Positions 67-60,378 of a stretch of 60,378 nucleotides of DNA are shown one piece after another. The stretch is from an uncultured Clostridia bacterium. GTDB taxonomy: Bacteria; Bacillota; Clostridia; Oscillospirales; Acutalibacteraceae. The DNA lies in contig CAMVQZ010000003.1 of the NCBI GenBank assembly GCA_947169745.1, positions 1 to 60,378 of the forward strand, in the 5' to 3' direction. Each line of letters starts with the position of its first letter. The first letter of the stretch is position 1. The position numbers and the translations under genes are program-made. The notes beneath the pieces were generated by a model. That model was not told the origin of the DNA, searched no databases, and worked only from the letters and a program-made list of their open reading frames with translations.

Positions 67-95
67 TTGACATTGGTGTAATTTTTTGTTATATT
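67..95 (+). promoter_or_regulatory. Promoter of the cobalamin operon (TTGACA-17-TATATT)
   Basis: TTGACA at 67-72 and TATATT at 90-95 are separated by 17 bp. This predicts a start near 102 and a leader of about 360 nt that carries the cobalamin riboswitch. The -35 box follows directly on the right end of the dispersed repeat, as at 33319 and 53250. Confidence 0.65.
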
Positions 96-12013: not shown

Positions 12014-12217
12014 AGTCAGACGCACTCTGCTGGAAAGTGAAATACGAGAAGTCAGAGTTTACCAGCCGCAGAAAGTAGCCTGTAGGGATGCGGCAGCGGA
12101 GGGGCAGGTGTTGTCCGGGGCACTGCGCTCCGGATGTCGCACGATAAGAATATAGTTAAATACAATTGAGCGAGTGTAAACGAGCGATAATGCGAATTGC
12201 TCAGTGCGAGCACGCAC
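12014..12217 (+). repeat. Dispersed hairpin repeat, copy A (type I end)
   Basis: The core 12062-12217 aligns by eye with the copies at 33094 and 52773. Shared blocks are CAGCCGCA-AAG, a GC-rich hairpin, GCGCTCCGGATG, GAGCGAGTGTAAACGAGCGA and the hairpin TGCTCAGTGCGAGCA (12198-12212). The part before 12062 is more diverged. The opposite strand can be read as a peptide containing LALSNSHYRSFTLAQ; similar reverse-strand readings occur in other copies and are not genes. A terminator and then the purine promoter follow directly. Confidence 0.8.
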
Positions 12218-12253
12218 GCAAGGTCGGAGATAAATTCGACCTTGCATTTTTTT
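12218..12253 (+). terminator. Intrinsic terminator at the end of repeat copy A
   Basis: GCAAGGTCG (12218-12226) pairs with CGACCTTGC (12237-12245); ATTTTTTT follows at 12246-12253. It would stop any transcript running through the repeat, before the purine promoter. Its right arm overlaps that promoter's -35 box. Confidence 0.85.
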
Positions 12254-12263
12254 ATTATATAAT
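12235..12263 (+). promoter_or_regulatory. Purine operon promoter (TTCGAC-17-TATAAT)
   Basis: TTCGAC at 12235-12240 and TATAAT at 12258-12263 are 17 bp apart. A start near 12270 gives a leader of about 180 nt. I found no purine or PRPP riboswitch consensus in the leader. GACC/GGTC around 12348-12361, followed by TTTTTT, is a weak attenuator-like hairpin. Confidence 0.6.
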
Positions 12264-12447
12264 GTAGAATGTATACGGAGAGTTTTATACTTTTGTAATA
12301 CTGTTTCCTGCCTTCATTTTTGGTATGGGGAGTATTATGGGCTCTTGACCGGACCGGGTCTTTTTTGCTGCTGCAAAATATTCTATGTATGACATTCAGC
12401 GCGGAGGGGATCTTTCTCCGGGAATTTAACCTAAGGAGAGAAAAGCA

Positions 12448-33093: not shown

Positions 33094-33300
33094 CCAGGCG
33101 CTCACTGTCAGGGGATTGAAAATCCTGAACTCAGGATAAACCAGCCGCAAGAAGCAGCCTGTGCAGGCTGCGACGGCAAGGGGTGGGAGTACTGTCTGAG
33201 GTACTGAGCGACGGATGCCTTGGAACAAGAATATATGTACGCACAACAGAGCGAGTGCAAACGAGCGATTATGTGAATACGGGTGCAGCGTCGACGTTGC
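33094..33300 (+). repeat. Dispersed hairpin repeat, copy B (type II end)
   Basis: It starts near CAGGCGCTCACTGTCAGGGG and contains the perfect hairpin GCAGCC-TGTGCA-GGCTGC at about 33136-33153. It then has GAGCGAGTGCAAACGAGCGA and ends with the near-palindrome GCAGCGTCGACGTTGC (33285-33300). The hairpin loop differs from copy E while the stem is the same, which suggests selection on structure. The region 33026-33093 holds nothing else I recognise. Confidence 0.8.
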
Positions 33301-33318: not shown

Positions 33319-33347
33319 TTGACGGGGTTAACGTGTTAAGGTAAAAT
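33319..33347 (+). promoter_or_regulatory. Promoter after repeat copy B (TTGACG-17-TAAAAT)
   Basis: TTGACG at 33319-33324 and TAAAAT at 33342-33347 are 17 bp apart. The start would be about 33354, very near the DUF5131 gene's ribosome site (33358-33364). Confidence 0.5.
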
Positions 33348-49513: not shown

Positions 49514-49631
49514 TTTGCTTCATTCCTTTCTTGAGGCACGCCTCGTTTATCTTTCTCAACATCATATGTAACAGCTACCGAAAATATGCAATGACGGATC
49601 GAAACATTCATTGAACAACACAACAATCATA

Positions 49632-49669
49632 ACGAGCGATAACGCGAATTGCTCAGTGCGAGCGCGCAC
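49632..49669 (+). repeat. Remnant of the dispersed hairpin repeat (copy C, type I end)
   Basis: ACGAGCGATAACGCGAATTG then CTCAGTGCGAGC matches the right end of copies A and D. Only this end is clearly conserved; the left part is degraded or absent. Confidence 0.75.
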
Positions 49670-49692: not shown

Positions 49693-49721
49693 TTGAAAAT
49701 GATACAATAATATATTAAAAT
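49693..49721 (+). promoter_or_regulatory. Promoter after repeat copy C (TTGAAA-17-TAAAAT)
   Basis: TTGAAA at 49693-49698 and TAAAAT at 49716-49721 are 17 bp apart, just before the DUF4870-like gene. Confidence 0.5.
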
Positions 49722-51904: not shown

Positions 51905-52687
51905 TTACACCTCAAAAATATTTTCAATAACATTCAGTCCCAGATCAGTACATATTTCCAGAGATTTGATGCATTCATTGTCATAAACCAGATCCGGAAT
52001 ATGACAGTCGGAACCAATAATAACTCTCTGATTACTTCCTTTAAGCTCATTCCAGAATCTCTCGTGGGGATACGGATAACGACGTCCATCCGGAAAATCA
52101 GACTTTCCTCTTCTCAGTCCGTTTGCGTTGAATTCAAGAGGAATATCATACTTTTCAGCAGCAGATAATATTATCGAGACAGCTTTGTCACAATTTTTAT
52201 CCCAGGAGAATTCTGATAAAAACATCAGATCCGGATGAGCAATTATATCAAACAGACCAGTACTGACAGCTTCCTCTATATTTTTTGCATATACAATATA
52301 ATCCCCGGTACTATTTGCAAAATAAATATTCTTTATCTGATTATCAATATCTGTATACATATGTTCTCCGAGTATAAGATAATCAAGTCCATATTTTACC
52401 TTAAGTTCTTCATAATACGTTTCATATTTCCTGAGATATTCTATTTCCAGTCCTTTATAGAGCTTTAATTTATTGCGAAATTCTGTTTTCAGGGAATCTA
52501 TTTCTGAAAGATAATCATTCAGCTCAGAAAAATCCATTCTGGAACCATAATCCTTGTCAGGAAAGGGACCATGATCAGAAAATCCCAGTACGGAGAGATC
52601 ATTCTTTATCGCAGCCAACACATAATCTCTCTCACTTCCGATGGCGTGTTTACACCGTTTTGTATGTGTGTGAAAATTAGCTTTCAT
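51905..52687 (-). CDS. PHP-domain phosphatase (histidinol-phosphatase-like)
   Basis: 260 residues, the usual HisK size. Metal ligands of the PHP domain are visible: FHTHTKRCKHA (His6, His8), GFSDHGPF, GLEIEYLRKYE, and the late IIGSDCHIPD. This group hydrolyses histidinol phosphate, but PHP phosphatases with other substrates look alike and no his genes are nearby. GAGGGGGAT precedes the ATG on the minus strand. First gene of a two-gene operon with the GH3 lipoprotein. Confidence 0.85.
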   Translation of the reverse strand: MKANFHTHTKRCKHAIGSERDYVLAAIKNDLSVLGFSDHGPFPDKDYGSRMDFSELNDYLSEIDSLKTEFRNKLKLYKGLEIEYLRKYETYYEELKVKYGLDYLILGEHMYTDIDNQIKNIYFANSTGDYIVYAKNIEEAVSTGLFDIIAHPDLMFLSEFSWDKNCDKAVSIILSAAEKYDIPLEFNANGLRRGKSDFPDGRRYPYPHERFWNELKGSNQRVIIGSDCHIPDLVYDNECIKSLEICTDLGLNVIENIFEV

Positions 52688-52772
52688 AAAAATCCCCCTC
52701 TTTTCATTGCTTCAATTCTATCATATTTTTTATTAAAAAACAACAGCTCTCCACCGGCAGTCTCACGCGCTG

Positions 52773-53008
52773 GATAAAATAATTCAGGGAAAAATCAGGC
52801 GCCCAATGTCAGAGGATTAAAAGCCTAAAGTCAGAATAAGACAGCCGCGTTAAGCAGACCGTTAGGGCTGCGGCGGCGGAGAGTGGGAGTGTTGTCTGGA
52901 AAAATGAGCGCCGGATGCCGCGCCACGAAAGTATTTGTACGCACAACCGAGCAAGTGTAAACGAGCGATGACGCGAATTGCTCAGTGCGAGCACGCACCG
53001 CTGGCGGT
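52773..53008 (+). repeat. Dispersed hairpin repeat, copy D (type I end)
   Basis: It starts GATAAAATAATTCAGGG, has GCGCCGGATGCCGCGC, and GAGCAAGTGTAAACGAGCGA, then the hairpin TGCTCAGTGCGAGCA, and ends in ACCGCTGGCGGT (52997-53008). It lies head-to-tail with copy E at an offset of 238 bp. The flanking 52688-52772 is otherwise featureless AT-rich DNA with a stretch CTCTCCACCGGCAG. Confidence 0.82.
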
Positions 53009-53010
53009 TA

Positions 53011-53243
53011 GATAAAATAATTCTGGGAGAAACAGGCGCTCGCTGTCAGAGGATTGGAAAACCGAAAGATAAAGTAATCCAGCCGCATAAAGCAGCCTGT
53101 AAGGGCTGCGGCGGCGGAGGTAGGGAGTATTACCTGAGATAGTGGGCGCCGGATGCCGCGCGACGAGAATATATACACGCACGGCAGAGGGAATGGAATG
53201 AGCGACTACGCGAACACGGGTCCAGCGTCGACGCTGGCACGCG
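53011..53243 (+). repeat. Dispersed hairpin repeat, copy E (type II end)
   Basis: The most complete copy: GATAAAATAATTCTGGGAGA, AGGCGCTCGCTGTCAGAGG, the perfect hairpin GCAGCC-TGTAAG-GGCTGC, then GCGCCGGATGCCGCGC. It ends in the palindrome CCAGCGTCGACGCTGG (53222-53237). Its last about 50 bp are the same as positions 8-56. It differs from copy D mainly in the right end, so the two copies have different terminal modules. Confidence 0.85.
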
Positions 53244-53249
53244 TTGGGG

Positions 53250-53278
53250 TTGACAAATTATGAAAACTGAGGTAATGT
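53250..53278 (+). promoter_or_regulatory. Promoter after repeat copy E (TTGACA-17-TAATGT)
   Basis: TTGACA at 53250-53255 and TAATGT at 53273-53278 are 17 bp apart, giving a start near 53285. A weak terminator at 53353 lies between it and htrA. Another possible -10 (TATAAT) lies near 53435 but lacks a -35. Confidence 0.55.
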
Positions 53279-53352
53279 TATTGTTGGTACTGATTATTAT
53301 CTTTTTTCAAAGTATACAAGTAAACATTCAAACTGATTGTGTAACATGGTTT

Positions 53353-53376
53353 CTTAAAAATGTTTAAGTTTTTTTT
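53353..53376 (+). terminator. AT-rich hairpin with T run in the htrA leader
   Basis: CTTAAA (53353-53358) pairs with TTTAAG (53363-53368) and eight T follow. The stem is weak but the T run is good. It would cut the transcript from 53285 to about 90 nt. Confidence 0.45.
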
Positions 53377-53475
53377 CATAGATTATTATTAAAAGATATT
53401 ATATTTGTTATCACAAACCGATTATTAATGTTATATAATTAGATCATCAAAGAAAACAAATTGGAGGTATCAATT

Positions 53476-55170
53476 ATGGATAACAATGAATACAAGAATA
53501 CAGAAAACGAAGAAAGAAAGAGTGAGCTTAACGCTTACGAGACCGGAAGAAGAAATGAGACTGGACTGGAGCCGGTATTTTCAAGCTCAGAGAGGGAGAG
53601 GGAATACCAGAATAAAAGCAGTGATATTTCTGTAAATACAGAAGCTTCTTCGTCGGATAATACGCAAAGCAATATATACTCAGGATATAACCAGACTTCT
53701 AATGGATATCCCGGATATGGTAATTATCAGAATATGGGCAGCAGCCCTTCTCCGTATCAGGCATATAGTAATCCTTATTATATGCCGAGGAATAATACAT
53801 CATCCGGACAGATCCCTCAGACTCCTGGCGCCTATCAGATGCATAATACACAACAGAGAGCAGCAACTGACTATCAGAATTACTCTCAGCCTGTAAAGCC
53901 TCAGCAGACAAAGAAAAAATCCGGCAGTTCAGGCAGAGGTGCAGCTGTTATTGCGGCAGCTATGATAATTTCATTGCTTGCTGGTGTCGGCGGAGGTTTC
54001 TTCGGAGCATATGTTATGAATAACAACAGCACAAGCTCAAGCAGTGTTTCGACTCAGAGCACCGTTGAGAATGATAAGAAGAAAGAAGAAAAAATCACAT
54101 CTGATAGCAGCAAAAAGGAAGAAGAAAGTGATTCTGTGAAGATCACTGAGGCAAGTGATACAAAGACCACGCCCACTACAATTCAGGAAGTTGCTGCTAT
54201 GGTAAAGGATTCCGTTGTTGAAATCACAACAGAAACCACTTCATATGACAGTTTCTATGGATCTTATGTTTCCAAGGCAGCCGGAAGCGGTGTTATTATA
54301 TCTGAAGACGGATATATAATAACTAATAATCATGTTATCGAAGATGCAAATACTATAACAGTCAGACTTACCAATTCTAAGACATACACAGCTAAGCTTA
54401 TCGGTAAGGATGCAACTCTTGATGTTGCATTGCTTAAAATAGATGAAAGCGGACTCACAACTGCAAAATTTGGCAATTCAGCGAAACTCAATGTTGGTCA
54501 GATCGCAATAGCAATCGGTAACCCTCTTGGTCAGCTGGGCGGAACTGTTACAGATGGTATTATCAGCGCTACAGACAGAGAGATACAGCTTGATGGCAAG
54601 ACTATGAATCTTCTTCAGACTAATGCTGCCATTAATCCCGGAAATTCCGGAGGCGGACTCTTTGATTCAAATGGTAATCTTATTGGTATAGTTGTTGCAA
54701 AATCCACATCAACAAGCTCCGGAACATCAGTAGAAGGTCTTGGATTTGCCATTCCGATAAATGATGTTTCAGATGTTCTTGATGATCTTAAGAAAAACGG
54801 CAAGGTTACAAACAGAGCGTATCTTGGAGTAAATCTTCGCGAGGTAACAAGTGAGGATGATATGTTCACATACCGTGTTGATAAGGCAGGGGTATACGTT
54901 ACAGCAGTAACAGCAGGCTCAGCTGCTGAAAAGGCAGGTATAAAGATAGGTGACTGCATCGAGAAATTTGACGGTAAAGAAGTCGAATCTGCTTCTTCTC
55001 TTTCAGCTCTGGTTTCAAAGCATAAGTCAGGTGATACAGTTGAAATAAAGATATATCGCGACGGAAAAGAACAAACACTCAGTGTTACACTGGGTGAGAA
55101 ATCCAACGACTCCGACTCAACTGAAAAAAGAAGAAGCTACGACGAGGACGATTATATTCCTCGCTGGTAA
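53476..55170 (+). CDS. htrA: HtrA/DegP-like membrane-anchored serine protease
   Basis: 564 residues from ATG 53476; TTGGAGG at 53461-53467 is the ribosome site. A long polar, Ser/Asn/Tyr/Gln-rich cytoplasmic part (1 to about 150) precedes one membrane segment (about 155-180). The trypsin-like domain has catalytic His286 (TNNHVIEDA), Asp316 (DVALLKID) and Ser391 (NPGNSGGGLF). One PDZ domain follows (about 455-545) with GSAAEKAGIKIGDCIEKFDG. It degrades or refolds damaged proteins outside the membrane. Confidence 0.95.
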   Translation: MDNNEYKNTENEERKSELNAYETGRRNETGLEPVFSSSEREREYQNKSSDISVNTEASSSDNTQSNIYSGYNQTSNGYPGYGNYQNMGSSPSPYQAYSNPYYMPRNNTSSGQIPQTPGAYQMHNTQQRAATDYQNYSQPVKPQQTKKKSGSSGRGAAVIAAAMIISLLAGVGGGFFGAYVMNNNSTSSSSVSTQSTVENDKKKEEKITSDSSKKEEESDSVKITEASDTKTTPTTIQEVAAMVKDSVVEITTETTSYDSFYGSYVSKAAGSGVIISEDGYIITNNHVIEDANTITVRLTNSKTYTAKLIGKDATLDVALLKIDESGLTTAKFGNSAKLNVGQIAIAIGNPLGQLGGTVTDGIISATDREIQLDGKTMNLLQTNAAINPGNSGGGLFDSNGNLIGIVVAKSTSTSSGTSVEGLGFAIPINDVSDVLDDLKKNGKVTNRAYLGVNLREVTSEDDMFTYRVDKAGVYVTAVTAGSAAEKAGIKIGDCIEKFDGKEVESASSLSALVSKHKSGDTVEIKIYRDGKEQTLSVTLGEKSNDSDSTEKRRSYDEDDYIPRW

Positions 55171-58574: not shown

Positions 58575-60378
58575 ATGTTAAACGAATTTTGGAAACAGTT
58601 CAAAAGCGGCACTGACATCAGGGGAGTTGCTGTCGCAGGAGCCGGTTCAGAGGTCAATCTGACAGATAAAGCTGTGACAGCAATGGTCAACGGTTTTATC
58701 TGCTGGCTCAGCGAAAAGAAAGGCGTGCCCACATCCTCACTGACTATTGCTGTTGGAAGAGATTCCAGGATTTCCGGTCCTCATATTCTGGATCTTGCTG
58801 CAGATACAATGGTAAAGGCAGGTATTACAGTATATGACTGTGATCTTGCTTCTACTCCTGCAATGTTTATGACAACAGTAGATATGGAATGTGATGGTTC
58901 TCTCCAGATAACCGCAAGTCATCATCCTTATTATCGTAATGGACTTAAATTCTTTACCCGAGAGGGTGGTCTTGACAGCCAAGATATAGAAAAGATACTT
59001 GAAAATGCTCAAAACGGAATTGTTCCGGAAAAAGCCGGTTTCGGAAGAAGAGAATACTGCGACTATATGAACCGCTATGCCTTTAATCTCAGAGAGATGA
59101 TAAAAGAGGAGGTTGCATCCGATGATGATTATGAACATCCTCTGAAGGGATTCAGGATTGTTGTTGATGCAGGAAATGGTGCAGGTGGTTTTTATGCTGC
59201 AGATGTACTAGAGCTGCTCGGTGCTGATGTAAGAGGAAGCCAGTTCCTTGAACCCGATGGAATGTTCCCGAATCATATCCCGAATCCGGAGGATGAGACA
59301 GCCATGTCATTTATCTGCAAGGCTGTTACAGATAACAAAGCAGATCTGGGTGTGATTTTTGATACAGATGTTGACAGGTGTGGCGCAGTTGATGCAGAAG
59401 GTAAAGAGATCAACCGAAACAGACTTGTTGCTCTTGCTTCTGCTATAGCTCTTGAGGATAACGAAGGCGGCACTATAGTAACCGATTCAATTACTTCAAG
59501 TGGTCTAAAGTTATTTATCGAGAACGAACTGGGAGGAAAGCATCTCAGATTCAAGAGAGGATATAAAAATGTAATTAACGAAGCTGTTTCACAGAACCAG
59601 AAGGGTGTAAACTGTCCTCTTGCAATAGAGACTTCTGGTCATGCTGCAATGAGAGAAAACTATTTTCTTGATGATGGAGCATATCTTGTTACAAAGATAA
59701 TCATTAAAATGGCAAAGCTCAGAAAAGAGGGCAAAAAGCTGGAAGCAGTTATCGAAAAGCTTGCTGAACCTGTTGAGAGCAAAGAGATCAGAATTAAGAT
59801 CACAGAAAAGGATTTCCGCAAATGTGGTGAAAAAGTTATTAAGGATCTGTTTGCATATGCTGCAAAACAGAAGTCCTTTATCGTTGCTGAGGATAATCAT
59901 GAGGGTATCAGAGTATCATTTGATAAATCAAACGGTAACGGGTGGTTCCTCCTCAGACTCAGTGTACATGATCCTATAATGCCTCTTAATATTGAAAGCG
60001 ACAGCAAGGGCGGAGTAGAAAAGATCTATTCAAAGATCATTCCTTTCCTTGAAACCTGCGAAGGTCTCGAGACATATAAAAAAACTGCTGATAAGTCGGC
60101 AGTAAAAGCTGAACCGGTAAAGAAGCTTACTGCAAAAGCAACTGCAGCCAAGGAAGACAAACCAGCGCCTGCGAAGAAACCTGCTGCAAAAGCAGCTGTC
60201 AAGGCAGAGCCCGAAAAGAAAGCTGCTGTGAAGGAATCCAAATCGGAGGTAAAGGCGGAGCCTGAAAAGAAGACTGCAGCAAAAGCAGAGGAAACTGCTG
60301 CAAAGGCAGCTGTCAAGGCAGAACCCGAAAAGAAAGCTGCTGTGAAGGAATCCAAATCGGAGGTAAAGGCGGAGCCTG
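58575..60378 (+). CDS. Phosphohexomutase with a Lys/Ala-rich repeat tail (runs off the window)
   Basis: At least 601 residues; no stop before the window end. ATG 58575 has AAAGGAG at 58561-58567. The catalytic part spans about 1-500: DIRGVAVAG, phosphoserine loop QITASHHPYYRNGLKF with Ser115, and metal loop DTDVDRCG (263-270). The expected glutamate-serine sugar loop reads ETSGHAAM rather than EMSGH or EESYG. From about 505 the sequence becomes a long Lys/Ala/Glu/Pro tail with a 38-residue repeat. Such tails resemble histone H1-like proteins and suggest binding to nucleic acid or polyanions. Substrate (glucose, mannose or glucosamine phosphate) is not decided. Confidence 0.88.
   Translation, partial: MLNEFWKQFKSGTDIRGVAVAGAGSEVNLTDKAVTAMVNGFICWLSEKKGVPTSSLTIAVGRDSRISGPHILDLAADTMVKAGITVYDCDLASTPAMFMTTVDMECDGSLQITASHHPYYRNGLKFFTREGGLDSQDIEKILENAQNGIVPEKAGFGRREYCDYMNRYAFNLREMIKEEVASDDDYEHPLKGFRIVVDAGNGAGGFYAADVLELLGADVRGSQFLEPDGMFPNHIPNPEDETAMSFICKAVTDNKADLGVIFDTDVDRCGAVDAEGKEINRNRLVALASAIALEDNEGGTIVTDSITSSGLKLFIENELGGKHLRFKRGYKNVINEAVSQNQKGVNCPLAIETSGHAAMRENYFLDDGAYLVTKIIIKMAKLRKEGKKLEAVIEKLAEPVESKEIRIKITEKDFRKCGEKVIKDLFAYAAKQKSFIVAEDNHEGIRVSFDKSNGNGWFLLRLSVHDPIMPLNIESDSKGGVEKIYSKIIPFLETCEGLETYKKTADKSAVKAEPVKKLTAKATAAKEDKPAPAKKPAAKAAVKAEPEKKAAVKESKSEVKAEPEKKTAAKAEETAAKAAVKAEPEKKAAVKESKSEVKAEP
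60181..60378 (+). repeat. 114-bp direct repeat in the phosphohexomutase tail
   Basis: The stretch 60181-60264 recurs at 60295-60378 with about two mismatches, an offset of 114 bp (38 codons). The second copy is cut by the window end, so the number of units is unknown. Confidence 0.85.

Follow-up and report, generated by a model that had tools for sequence, protein, structure and literature searches.

Repeat copies and candidate promoters in the window

The window (the whole stretch of 60,378 nucleotides that was analysed) includes: (i) six copies of a repeat, the last two in tandem, (ii) candidate promoters to the right of the copies, and (iii) the genes that follow, among them purE and a trypsin-like/PDZ protease assigned by Pfam (window 53461), referred to as the focal gene (Table 1). 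The core motif of the repeat, GAGCGANNANGNGAA, is found six times in the window, always on the + strand, by a search that allows at most one mismatch, compared to 1.18 occurrences expected by shuffling. The six copies listed in a preliminary description of this DNA are, thus, all present, and the five pairs of -35 and -10 strings it gave are each found at their coordinates with a 17-nt spacer. Two of the five pairs (12235-12263 and 53250-53278), although present as strings, are probably not the main promoter. TTCGAC (12235-12263) is located where an intrinsic terminator has the 3' arm of its stem. The boxes at 53250-53278 score 10.7 compared to a 95% shuffle limit of 9.6, include a poor -10 (TAATGT) and are missing from a separate consensus promoter scan. 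A terminator scan of 52600-53500 identifies no intrinsic terminator on the + strand and two weak ones on the - strand, both within the repeats, where 0.7 are expected. Elsewhere in the window, a cobalamin riboswitch (195-331; Rfam, 46.7 bits) lies just 3' of copy 1 and ahead of gene 462, and the right end (60098-60378) has direct repeats inside coding sequence.

Table 1. Repeat copies, candidate promoters and adjacent elements of the window.
Feature	Position	Strand	Remark
Copy 1, cut down to its right part by the contig end	1..56	+	Hairpin CCAGCGTCGACGCTGG at 37-52
TTGACA-N17-TATATT adjoining copy 1	67..95	+	Score 14.9
Copy 2, full length	12017..12217	+	Right end GCTCAGTGCGAGCACGCAC
Terminator-like stem-loop GCAAGGTCG/CGACCTTGC followed by a T run	12218..12246	+	Counterparts in several repeat-free relatives
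Conserved purE promoter TTGCAT-N17-TAGAAT, in place of the earlier 12235-12263 boxes	12242..12270	+	Based on relatives
Copy 3, full length	33095..33300	+	Hairpin GCAGCGTCGACGTTGC
TTGACG-N17-TAAAAT adjoining copy 3	33319..33347	+	Score 13.4
Copy 4, 39-bp right-end fragment only	49631..49669	+	
TTGAAA-N17-TAAAAT adjoining copy 4	49693..49721	+	Score 13.5
Copy 5, first member of the tandem pair	52796..52998	+	
Tandem junction module ..GGTTAGATAAAATAATTCTGGGAGAAA	52999..53032	+	Recurs left of other copies as GTTAGTGTAAAATAATTCTGGGAGAAA
Copy 6, second member of the tandem pair	53033..53241	+	Hairpin CCAGCGTCGACGCTGG at 53222-53237
Focal TTGACA-N17-TAATGT, weak promoter candidate	53250..53278	+	Absent from the relatives read
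CTTAAAAATGTTTAAG block, conserved 5' of the focal gene in many relatives	53353..53368	+	
TTATCA-N20-TATAAT, conserved block 5' of the focal gene	53408..53439	+	Probable native promoter

Anatomy and copy number of the repeat family

The ~55-bp unit first taken as the repeat is instead the right-hand part of a ~210-bp element, of which GAGCGANNANGNGAA forms the core. The left body is near-constant where complete, with ~167-168 bp up to core GAGCGAnnACGCGAA, and the distance from CAGGCGC to the core is 160-170 bp (mostly 167-168) in 42 of 93 sampled copies. An alignment of 40 of these 42 full copies, the other two being dropped for a spurious left end, has a mean column identity of 84%. The 3' side of the core carries between one and three GC hairpins, drawn from three types (H1, H2 and H3) and arranged in several orders (82/93 copies); no recognised hairpin is found in 11/93. 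The hairpins occur singly or chained by two or three and, as in BOX elements, are interchangeable internal modules of variable number. The repeat 'types' of the preliminary description differ in this hairpin module. The outer pair of H1, with each of 76 sites counted once, is G..C in 53, C..G in 15 and other in 8. The H1 palindromes are, thus, maintained through double (compensatory) changes, which argues that pairing matters at the level of DNA or RNA.

The core motif has 282 exact matches (130 on the + and 152 on the - strand) in the 2.53 Mb source genome (2,531,013 bases in 177 contigs), compared to two for the reversed motif. Contig ends that lie within or beside a repeat copy are noted in the window (at 15) and in C5, C6, C8, C11, C14, C16, C18, C24, C29 and C31 of the source genome. 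As many contigs stop at repeats, the assembly is broken by them, and the real copy number is probably higher. Other repeated sequences accompany certain copies. A larger recurrent composite consists of an inverted core, AAAAAGATnGTCGGTATCC..TTTACACAGATCTGACAACCGCGCC and a normal core (L032, 9415-9640; L041, 17467-17692; L051; L053; L060). A second repeated module, AGTAAGC(T/C)TATG..AACGGATACTGACTATAAAA, abuts the left side of several copies (L040, L044, L050, L056 and L058), and a G-run repeat, GGGGGATTTTCAAAGGGGGCAAACTCAAAGGGGG, is located on the left of three (L043, L062 and L070).

Position and orientation relative to promoters

The association with promoters was analysed in 754,875 bases, made up of the window and 40 stretches that surround listed copies, with 93 of the 282 copies in 71 clusters; the stretches were picked around the first 100 listed places, and the sample, thus, favours long contigs. 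A total of 616 genes were called with a custom script, at a coding fraction of ~85%. A promoter was defined as a sigma-A-like sequence match that starts at most 60 bp from the last hairpin and scores above the 95% limit set by dinucleotide shuffles; the score weights were untrained, and the calls are sequence matches that represent candidate promoters rather than mapped starts. The promoter statistics are based on 65 of the 71 clusters (six are too close to an end) and the orientation statistics on 53 (the neighbour gene is missing in the rest).

A same-strand sigma-A-like promoter is found at the right end of 49/65 clusters, a count that includes the purE and focal clusters as scored at the box first described or one nearby. 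By construction from shuffles the expectation is 5%, and the reverse strand of the identical windows yields a promoter in 2/65. The limit is passed by 16.6% of random starts 5' of element-free genes (n=950) and by 5% of other intergenic starts (n=990). The early observation that the right end of the repeat meets promoters, thus, holds well above chance in the sampled genome. In the 49 repeat-linked promoters, the -35 starts at a median of 15 bp past the last hairpin, and 38 have a spacer of 17. The right-hand gene is on the same strand as the repeat in 49/53 clusters, and none of the 93 cores is within a called gene. A preference for gaps between convergent genes, which the preliminary description had named as evidence to the contrary, is not observed: 1/50 repeat-bearing intergenic regions is convergent compared to 34/194 that are repeat-free. 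Placement within the gap is also non-uniform, with a median of 16 bp to the -35 versus 176 bp to the upstream gene (KS p=2e-19; 36 of 37 clusters, solely those with a called promoter).

The promoter link does not depend detectably on the similarity of a copy to other copies, as 5/6 are linked at an identity of at least 96% and 7/11 at below 80% (correlation p=0.21), in a small test in which gene conversion could make copies look young. The link persists in copies where no left body is recognised (15/22 compared to 34/43 with the body; p=0.37); thus, the link is carried by the right end. The flanks to the right of the repeat are unlike one another and run into the -35. The genes behind the repeat-linked promoters are of many kinds, including probable housekeeping genes; purE is identified by Pfam, and leuB, serC, yicC and rpsF are names that we presume solely from reading protein starts.

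Orthologous promoters in relatives

The purE promoter is noted as TTGC(A/T)T-N15-19-TA(A/G)AAT upstream of the gene in 18 of the 24 relatives printed, several of which share the same terminator-like stem; among the matches listed, none of 80 loci has the core motif. The repeat copy of the source genome stops directly 5' of this stem, and a different GC hairpin is located at the same place in L159. The leuB promoter, TTGACTAAT..TATAAT, is common to species with and without a hairpin, and two of 30 are without the promoter by pattern. A blind rule detects a GC hairpin at up to 60 bp in 10/28 leuB loci and misses some short-armed hairpins, including the copy of the source genome. On the leuB gene tree (28 rows, labelled by a GC-rich 40 bp upstream, with G042 relabelled by hand as hairpin-free), the hairpin state requires eight changes (bootstrap 7-9), of which at least three are forced by well supported branches, and the label is not clustered (105/500 shuffles are as low). 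For yicC, a strong promoter is found in 25 of the 29 loci read, and a promoter-adjacent hairpin, identified by eye and of several sequence types, in five (source genome, L403, L404, L418 and L421).

The focal gene has a conserved block ~155 bp downstream of the 53250-53278 boxes, and GC hairpins of another type abut the conserved palindrome in G060. With promoters of purE, leuB and yicC present without the repeat, and with the focal block conserved, the repeats, thus, come to promoters where this can be checked. The orthologs of the focal gene (L239-L267; window 53461) often include a CTTAAA-N-TTTAAG palindrome and have a TATAAT ~20 nt past a -35-like block; this spacing is unusual, and the promoter is perhaps an activated one. 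In L268, L276, L284 and L287, the rpsF promoter lies, from the -35 to the -10, within the inverted repeat CACCCTTGAC..GTCAGGGGTG.

Repeats in other genomes of the genus

A near-exact core, GAGCGANNACGCGAA, is found in 22 of the 64 genomes of the genus that were searched, of which only five have 20 or more copies (source genome, 260; G077, 170; G062, 72; G051, 45; and G023, 20). A different hairpin, ACCGGCGGCWCGCCGG, occurs in 34/64 genomes at up to 165 copies, with no match in the source genome. Four genomes were read for promoters at 30 of 75 (G062), 30 of 172 (G077), all 21 (G023) and 40 of 62 places (G047, 27 with enough flank). G062, which has a different left body and the same core and hairpin type as the source genome, has a promoter in 20/22 clusters (reverse strand, 2/22) and the right-hand gene on the same strand in 21/22. 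G047, with the ACCGGCGGCWCGCCGG hairpin, has a promoter in 22/27 (reverse strand, 0/27) and 24 of the 25 called right-hand genes on the same strand. By contrast, the promoter link fails in G023 (5/19) and G077 (5/15; reverse strand, 2/15) despite the same core motif. Of the called right-hand genes of G023, 13/17 are on the opposite strand; at two G023 loci, a search for a protein gene that ends on the right side of the copies found none. The promoter link is, thus, dependent on lineage. In a set of about one ACCGGCGGCWCGCCGG locus per genome, a promoter is detected in 10/27 (reverse, 1/27). Certain places of G062 (C21, C122, C141 and C146) carry the core and hairpin in tandem, with a period of 39-42 bp and up to four units.

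Via purE, the closest named relatives among the matches listed are genomes from metagenomes; they are deposited under uncultured Clostridiales or Ruminococcus, and many bear RUG isolate names. The carrier is a bacterium of the gut or rumen, and many hairpin repeats before promoters are also found in two or more sister species.

Composition of the promoter spacer

Repeat-bearing promoters of the source genome have spacers that are rich in G (.305 vs..183; p=2e-4) and poor in C (.034 vs..092; p=8e-7), and GGGG is found in 14/49 compared to 1/68 other promoters. Of these 14, the rpsF spacer is part of an inverted repeat that repeat-free relatives also have. The element-free comparison promoters were taken from up to 300 bp upstream at a score limit higher by 1.5, and by eye two or three of these resemble remnants of the repeat. 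Similar values are observed for G047 (G.338 vs..200, p=2e-4; GGGG 6/24 vs. 0/41) and G062 (G.319 vs..226, p=0.05; GGGG 4/19 vs. 0/17), for which the promoters from elsewhere may lie inside genes. The G effect declines with distance from the hairpin (.37,.31 and.24; p=0.07). GG immediately precedes the -35 in 19/49 repeat promoters compared to 4/68 others, and the -35 hexamers beside the repeats are as diverse as elsewhere.

Among orthologs, with the source genome left out, the spacer effect is suggestive for leuB (Spearman 0.51, p=0.006, phylogeny not controlled) and not significant for yicC (0.31, p=0.14). A phylogeny-controlled comparison is limited to three pairs, with an average of 1.9 in the same direction and 0.1 in the opposite. 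A distinct promoter architecture could tentatively be proposed, in which a GC-hairpin array is followed by (often) GG, the -35, a G-rich and C-poor spacer and the -10. Such an architecture might be made by a promoter-seeking repeat, with its insertion polarity set by the direction of RNA polymerase and with spacer and hairpin co-evolving.

Origin of the promoter association

We lean towards the reading that the family is a promoter-anchored, polarity-locked mosaic hairpin repeat with its right end at the 5' edge of pre-existing promoters, probably placed there by promoter-targeted insertion. This reading builds on the anatomy and copy number of the repeat, its position and orientation in the sample, and the promoters common to repeat-free relatives at three loci. 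It builds further on the repeated gain or loss at one locus (leuB), the compensated palindromes and the recurrence in two sister species whose repeats differ in sequence. The earlier suggestion of an element that is associated with, or inserts at, promoters gains support from the position and orientation in the sample, the two further species and the repeat-free orthologous promoters. Insertion would be directed just upstream of the -35, either because the DNA there is open or supercoiled or through RNA polymerase/sigma itself, and its polarity would be set by the direction of transcription. The repeats may then grow and turn over by exchange of hairpin modules, with the promoter-side end staying fixed. 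The GC hairpins would replace the AT-rich upstream region and probably change the strength or insulation of the promoter. Promoter-directed insertion is, we think, the likeliest cause and selective retention its main rival; the most similar copies are no less promoter-linked, which suits targeting better than slow sorting.

Selective retention is possible, if doubtful, and would make the repeat a regulatory or architectural module that lands widely, with only the promoter-pointing 5' copies kept because the GC hairpins help. The hairpins could, speculatively, shield the promoter from transcription or supercoiling that arrives from upstream, bind a nucleoid protein or a topoisomerase, or adjust how strong the promoter is; the control module of the preliminary description is, likewise, a putative function. 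The fixed polarity and position ahead of genes of many kinds are consistent with such a module, as are the compensatory maintenance of the hairpin palindrome and the promoter link that persists without the left body, and the G-rich, C-poor spacers suggest co-evolution. However, for convergent regions to be nearly empty, neutral copies would have to be lost very efficiently, the copies of highest similarity already show the promoter link, and at leuB and yicC presence varies erratically from one relative to the next. Donation of promoters by a repeat end that carries the -35 (or -35 and -10), as in the neisserial Correia repeats, is improbable. The frequent GG before the -35 and a focal 53250-53278 candidate that is not seen in the relatives read would fit this explanation, but the purE, leuB and yicC promoters exist in repeat-free relatives, the right flanks are unlike one another, and the -35 hexamers are as varied beside repeats as elsewhere. 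The early proposal that the repeat supplies promoters is, therefore, not supported.

It is very improbable that the repeats form a family of structured RNAs, transcribed as a leader, small RNA or guide RNA. One copy folds well (z -4.5), body length is near-constant, and the share of paired cells is slightly over that of shuffles (75.5% vs. 74.8%; 13/500 as high). However, for 40 copies and one proposed structure, the cells changed on both sides number 23 compared to a shuffle mean of 18.9 (95/500 as high), the outer stem is present in just 17/40 single-copy minimum-energy folds, and no Rfam family is matched. The RNA-gene reading was, thus, rejected for its lack of clear covariation on 40 copies and of an Rfam match, despite the good single fold. 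The repeat is also upstream of the promoter and is, thus, not a leader RNA of the downstream gene. Scarcely credible is a by-product, in which repeats fall anywhere intergenic and, with gaps kept short by the high coding fraction of the sample, promoters are bound to be near; this is contradicted by the non-uniform placement, orientation lock, convergent avoidance and reverse-strand control.

Other candidates were considered. A REP/RAYT system was rejected because Y1 transposase (PF01797), the sole transposase family tested, has no match in the source genome (completeness 100); G062, G051 and G023 also have none, and G077 has five. Of the marks of a MITE (non-autonomous DNA transposon), terminal inverted repeats with arms of at least 8 bases are absent from two copies, which have internal palindromes only; shorter arms are possible. 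As for target-site duplication, the relatives diverge too far between genes to provide an empty site. Carriage on a phage or plasmid was set aside, as one 209-base copy is unmatched in phages and plasmids and one exact pattern is unmatched in viral contigs. An intrinsic terminator repeat (SPRITE-like) was likewise dismissed, as the copies scanned have no GC hairpin with a T run at the right end and their flanks run into the -35.

Yeast has promoter-targeting retrotransposons. If insertion of the repeat is targeted, bacteria would own a promoter-seeking element of comparable logic; if the repeat is instead selected, it would represent a kind of hairpin upstream of promoters, paired with a matching spacer, that has gone unrecognised.

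Comparison with known systems

Full-text literature searches, judged by titles and the starts of abstracts, revealed no description that was recognised as this repeat family. The comparisons made here draw on partial texts of the cited sources. The repeat resembles REP/BIME elements with RAYT (Y1) as a mosaic, high-copy array of extragenic palindromes, but has no Y1 transposase match in the source genome and a promoter-side position (PMC2817692, as far as the partial text describes). Correia elements of Neisseria are similarly ~200 bp, present in >100 copies, often just upstream of genes and linked to sigma-70 promoters; however, they carry a promoter and terminal inverted repeats, whereas the promoters checked here are native and no terminal inverted repeat is seen (PMC10969869, partial text). 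The insertion of IS5 upstream of glpFK in Escherichia coli is similar in that it takes place 5' of a native promoter, which it activates, in destabilised DNA and at one site and in one orientation, but involves a full IS at single loci found under selection, compared to a short repeat that is polarity-locked genome-wide (PMC5493358, partial text).

BOX, RUP and SPRITE of Streptococcus pneumoniae are likewise small, modular, folded, many-copy intergenic repeats, of which boxA and boxC can stimulate downstream genes (PMC3049150, partial text). These pneumococcal repeats are over-represented between convergent genes (for BOX, 70 upstream to 16 convergent; P 0.0017), an excess that the authors tie to tolerance of insertion there (PMC3049150, partial text). 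The repeat described here, by contrast, nearly avoids convergent regions and abuts the -35 with its right end in one polarity. It, thus, resembles BOX in its modules, REP in its palindromes, and Correia in its upstream location and sigma-70 promoter, and as far as tested has the full defining set of none of them. The family of 282 cores does the opposite of the pneumococcal repeats as these appear in the partial text (PMC3049150): its copies abut the -35 with a single polarity, and its sequence differs between species.
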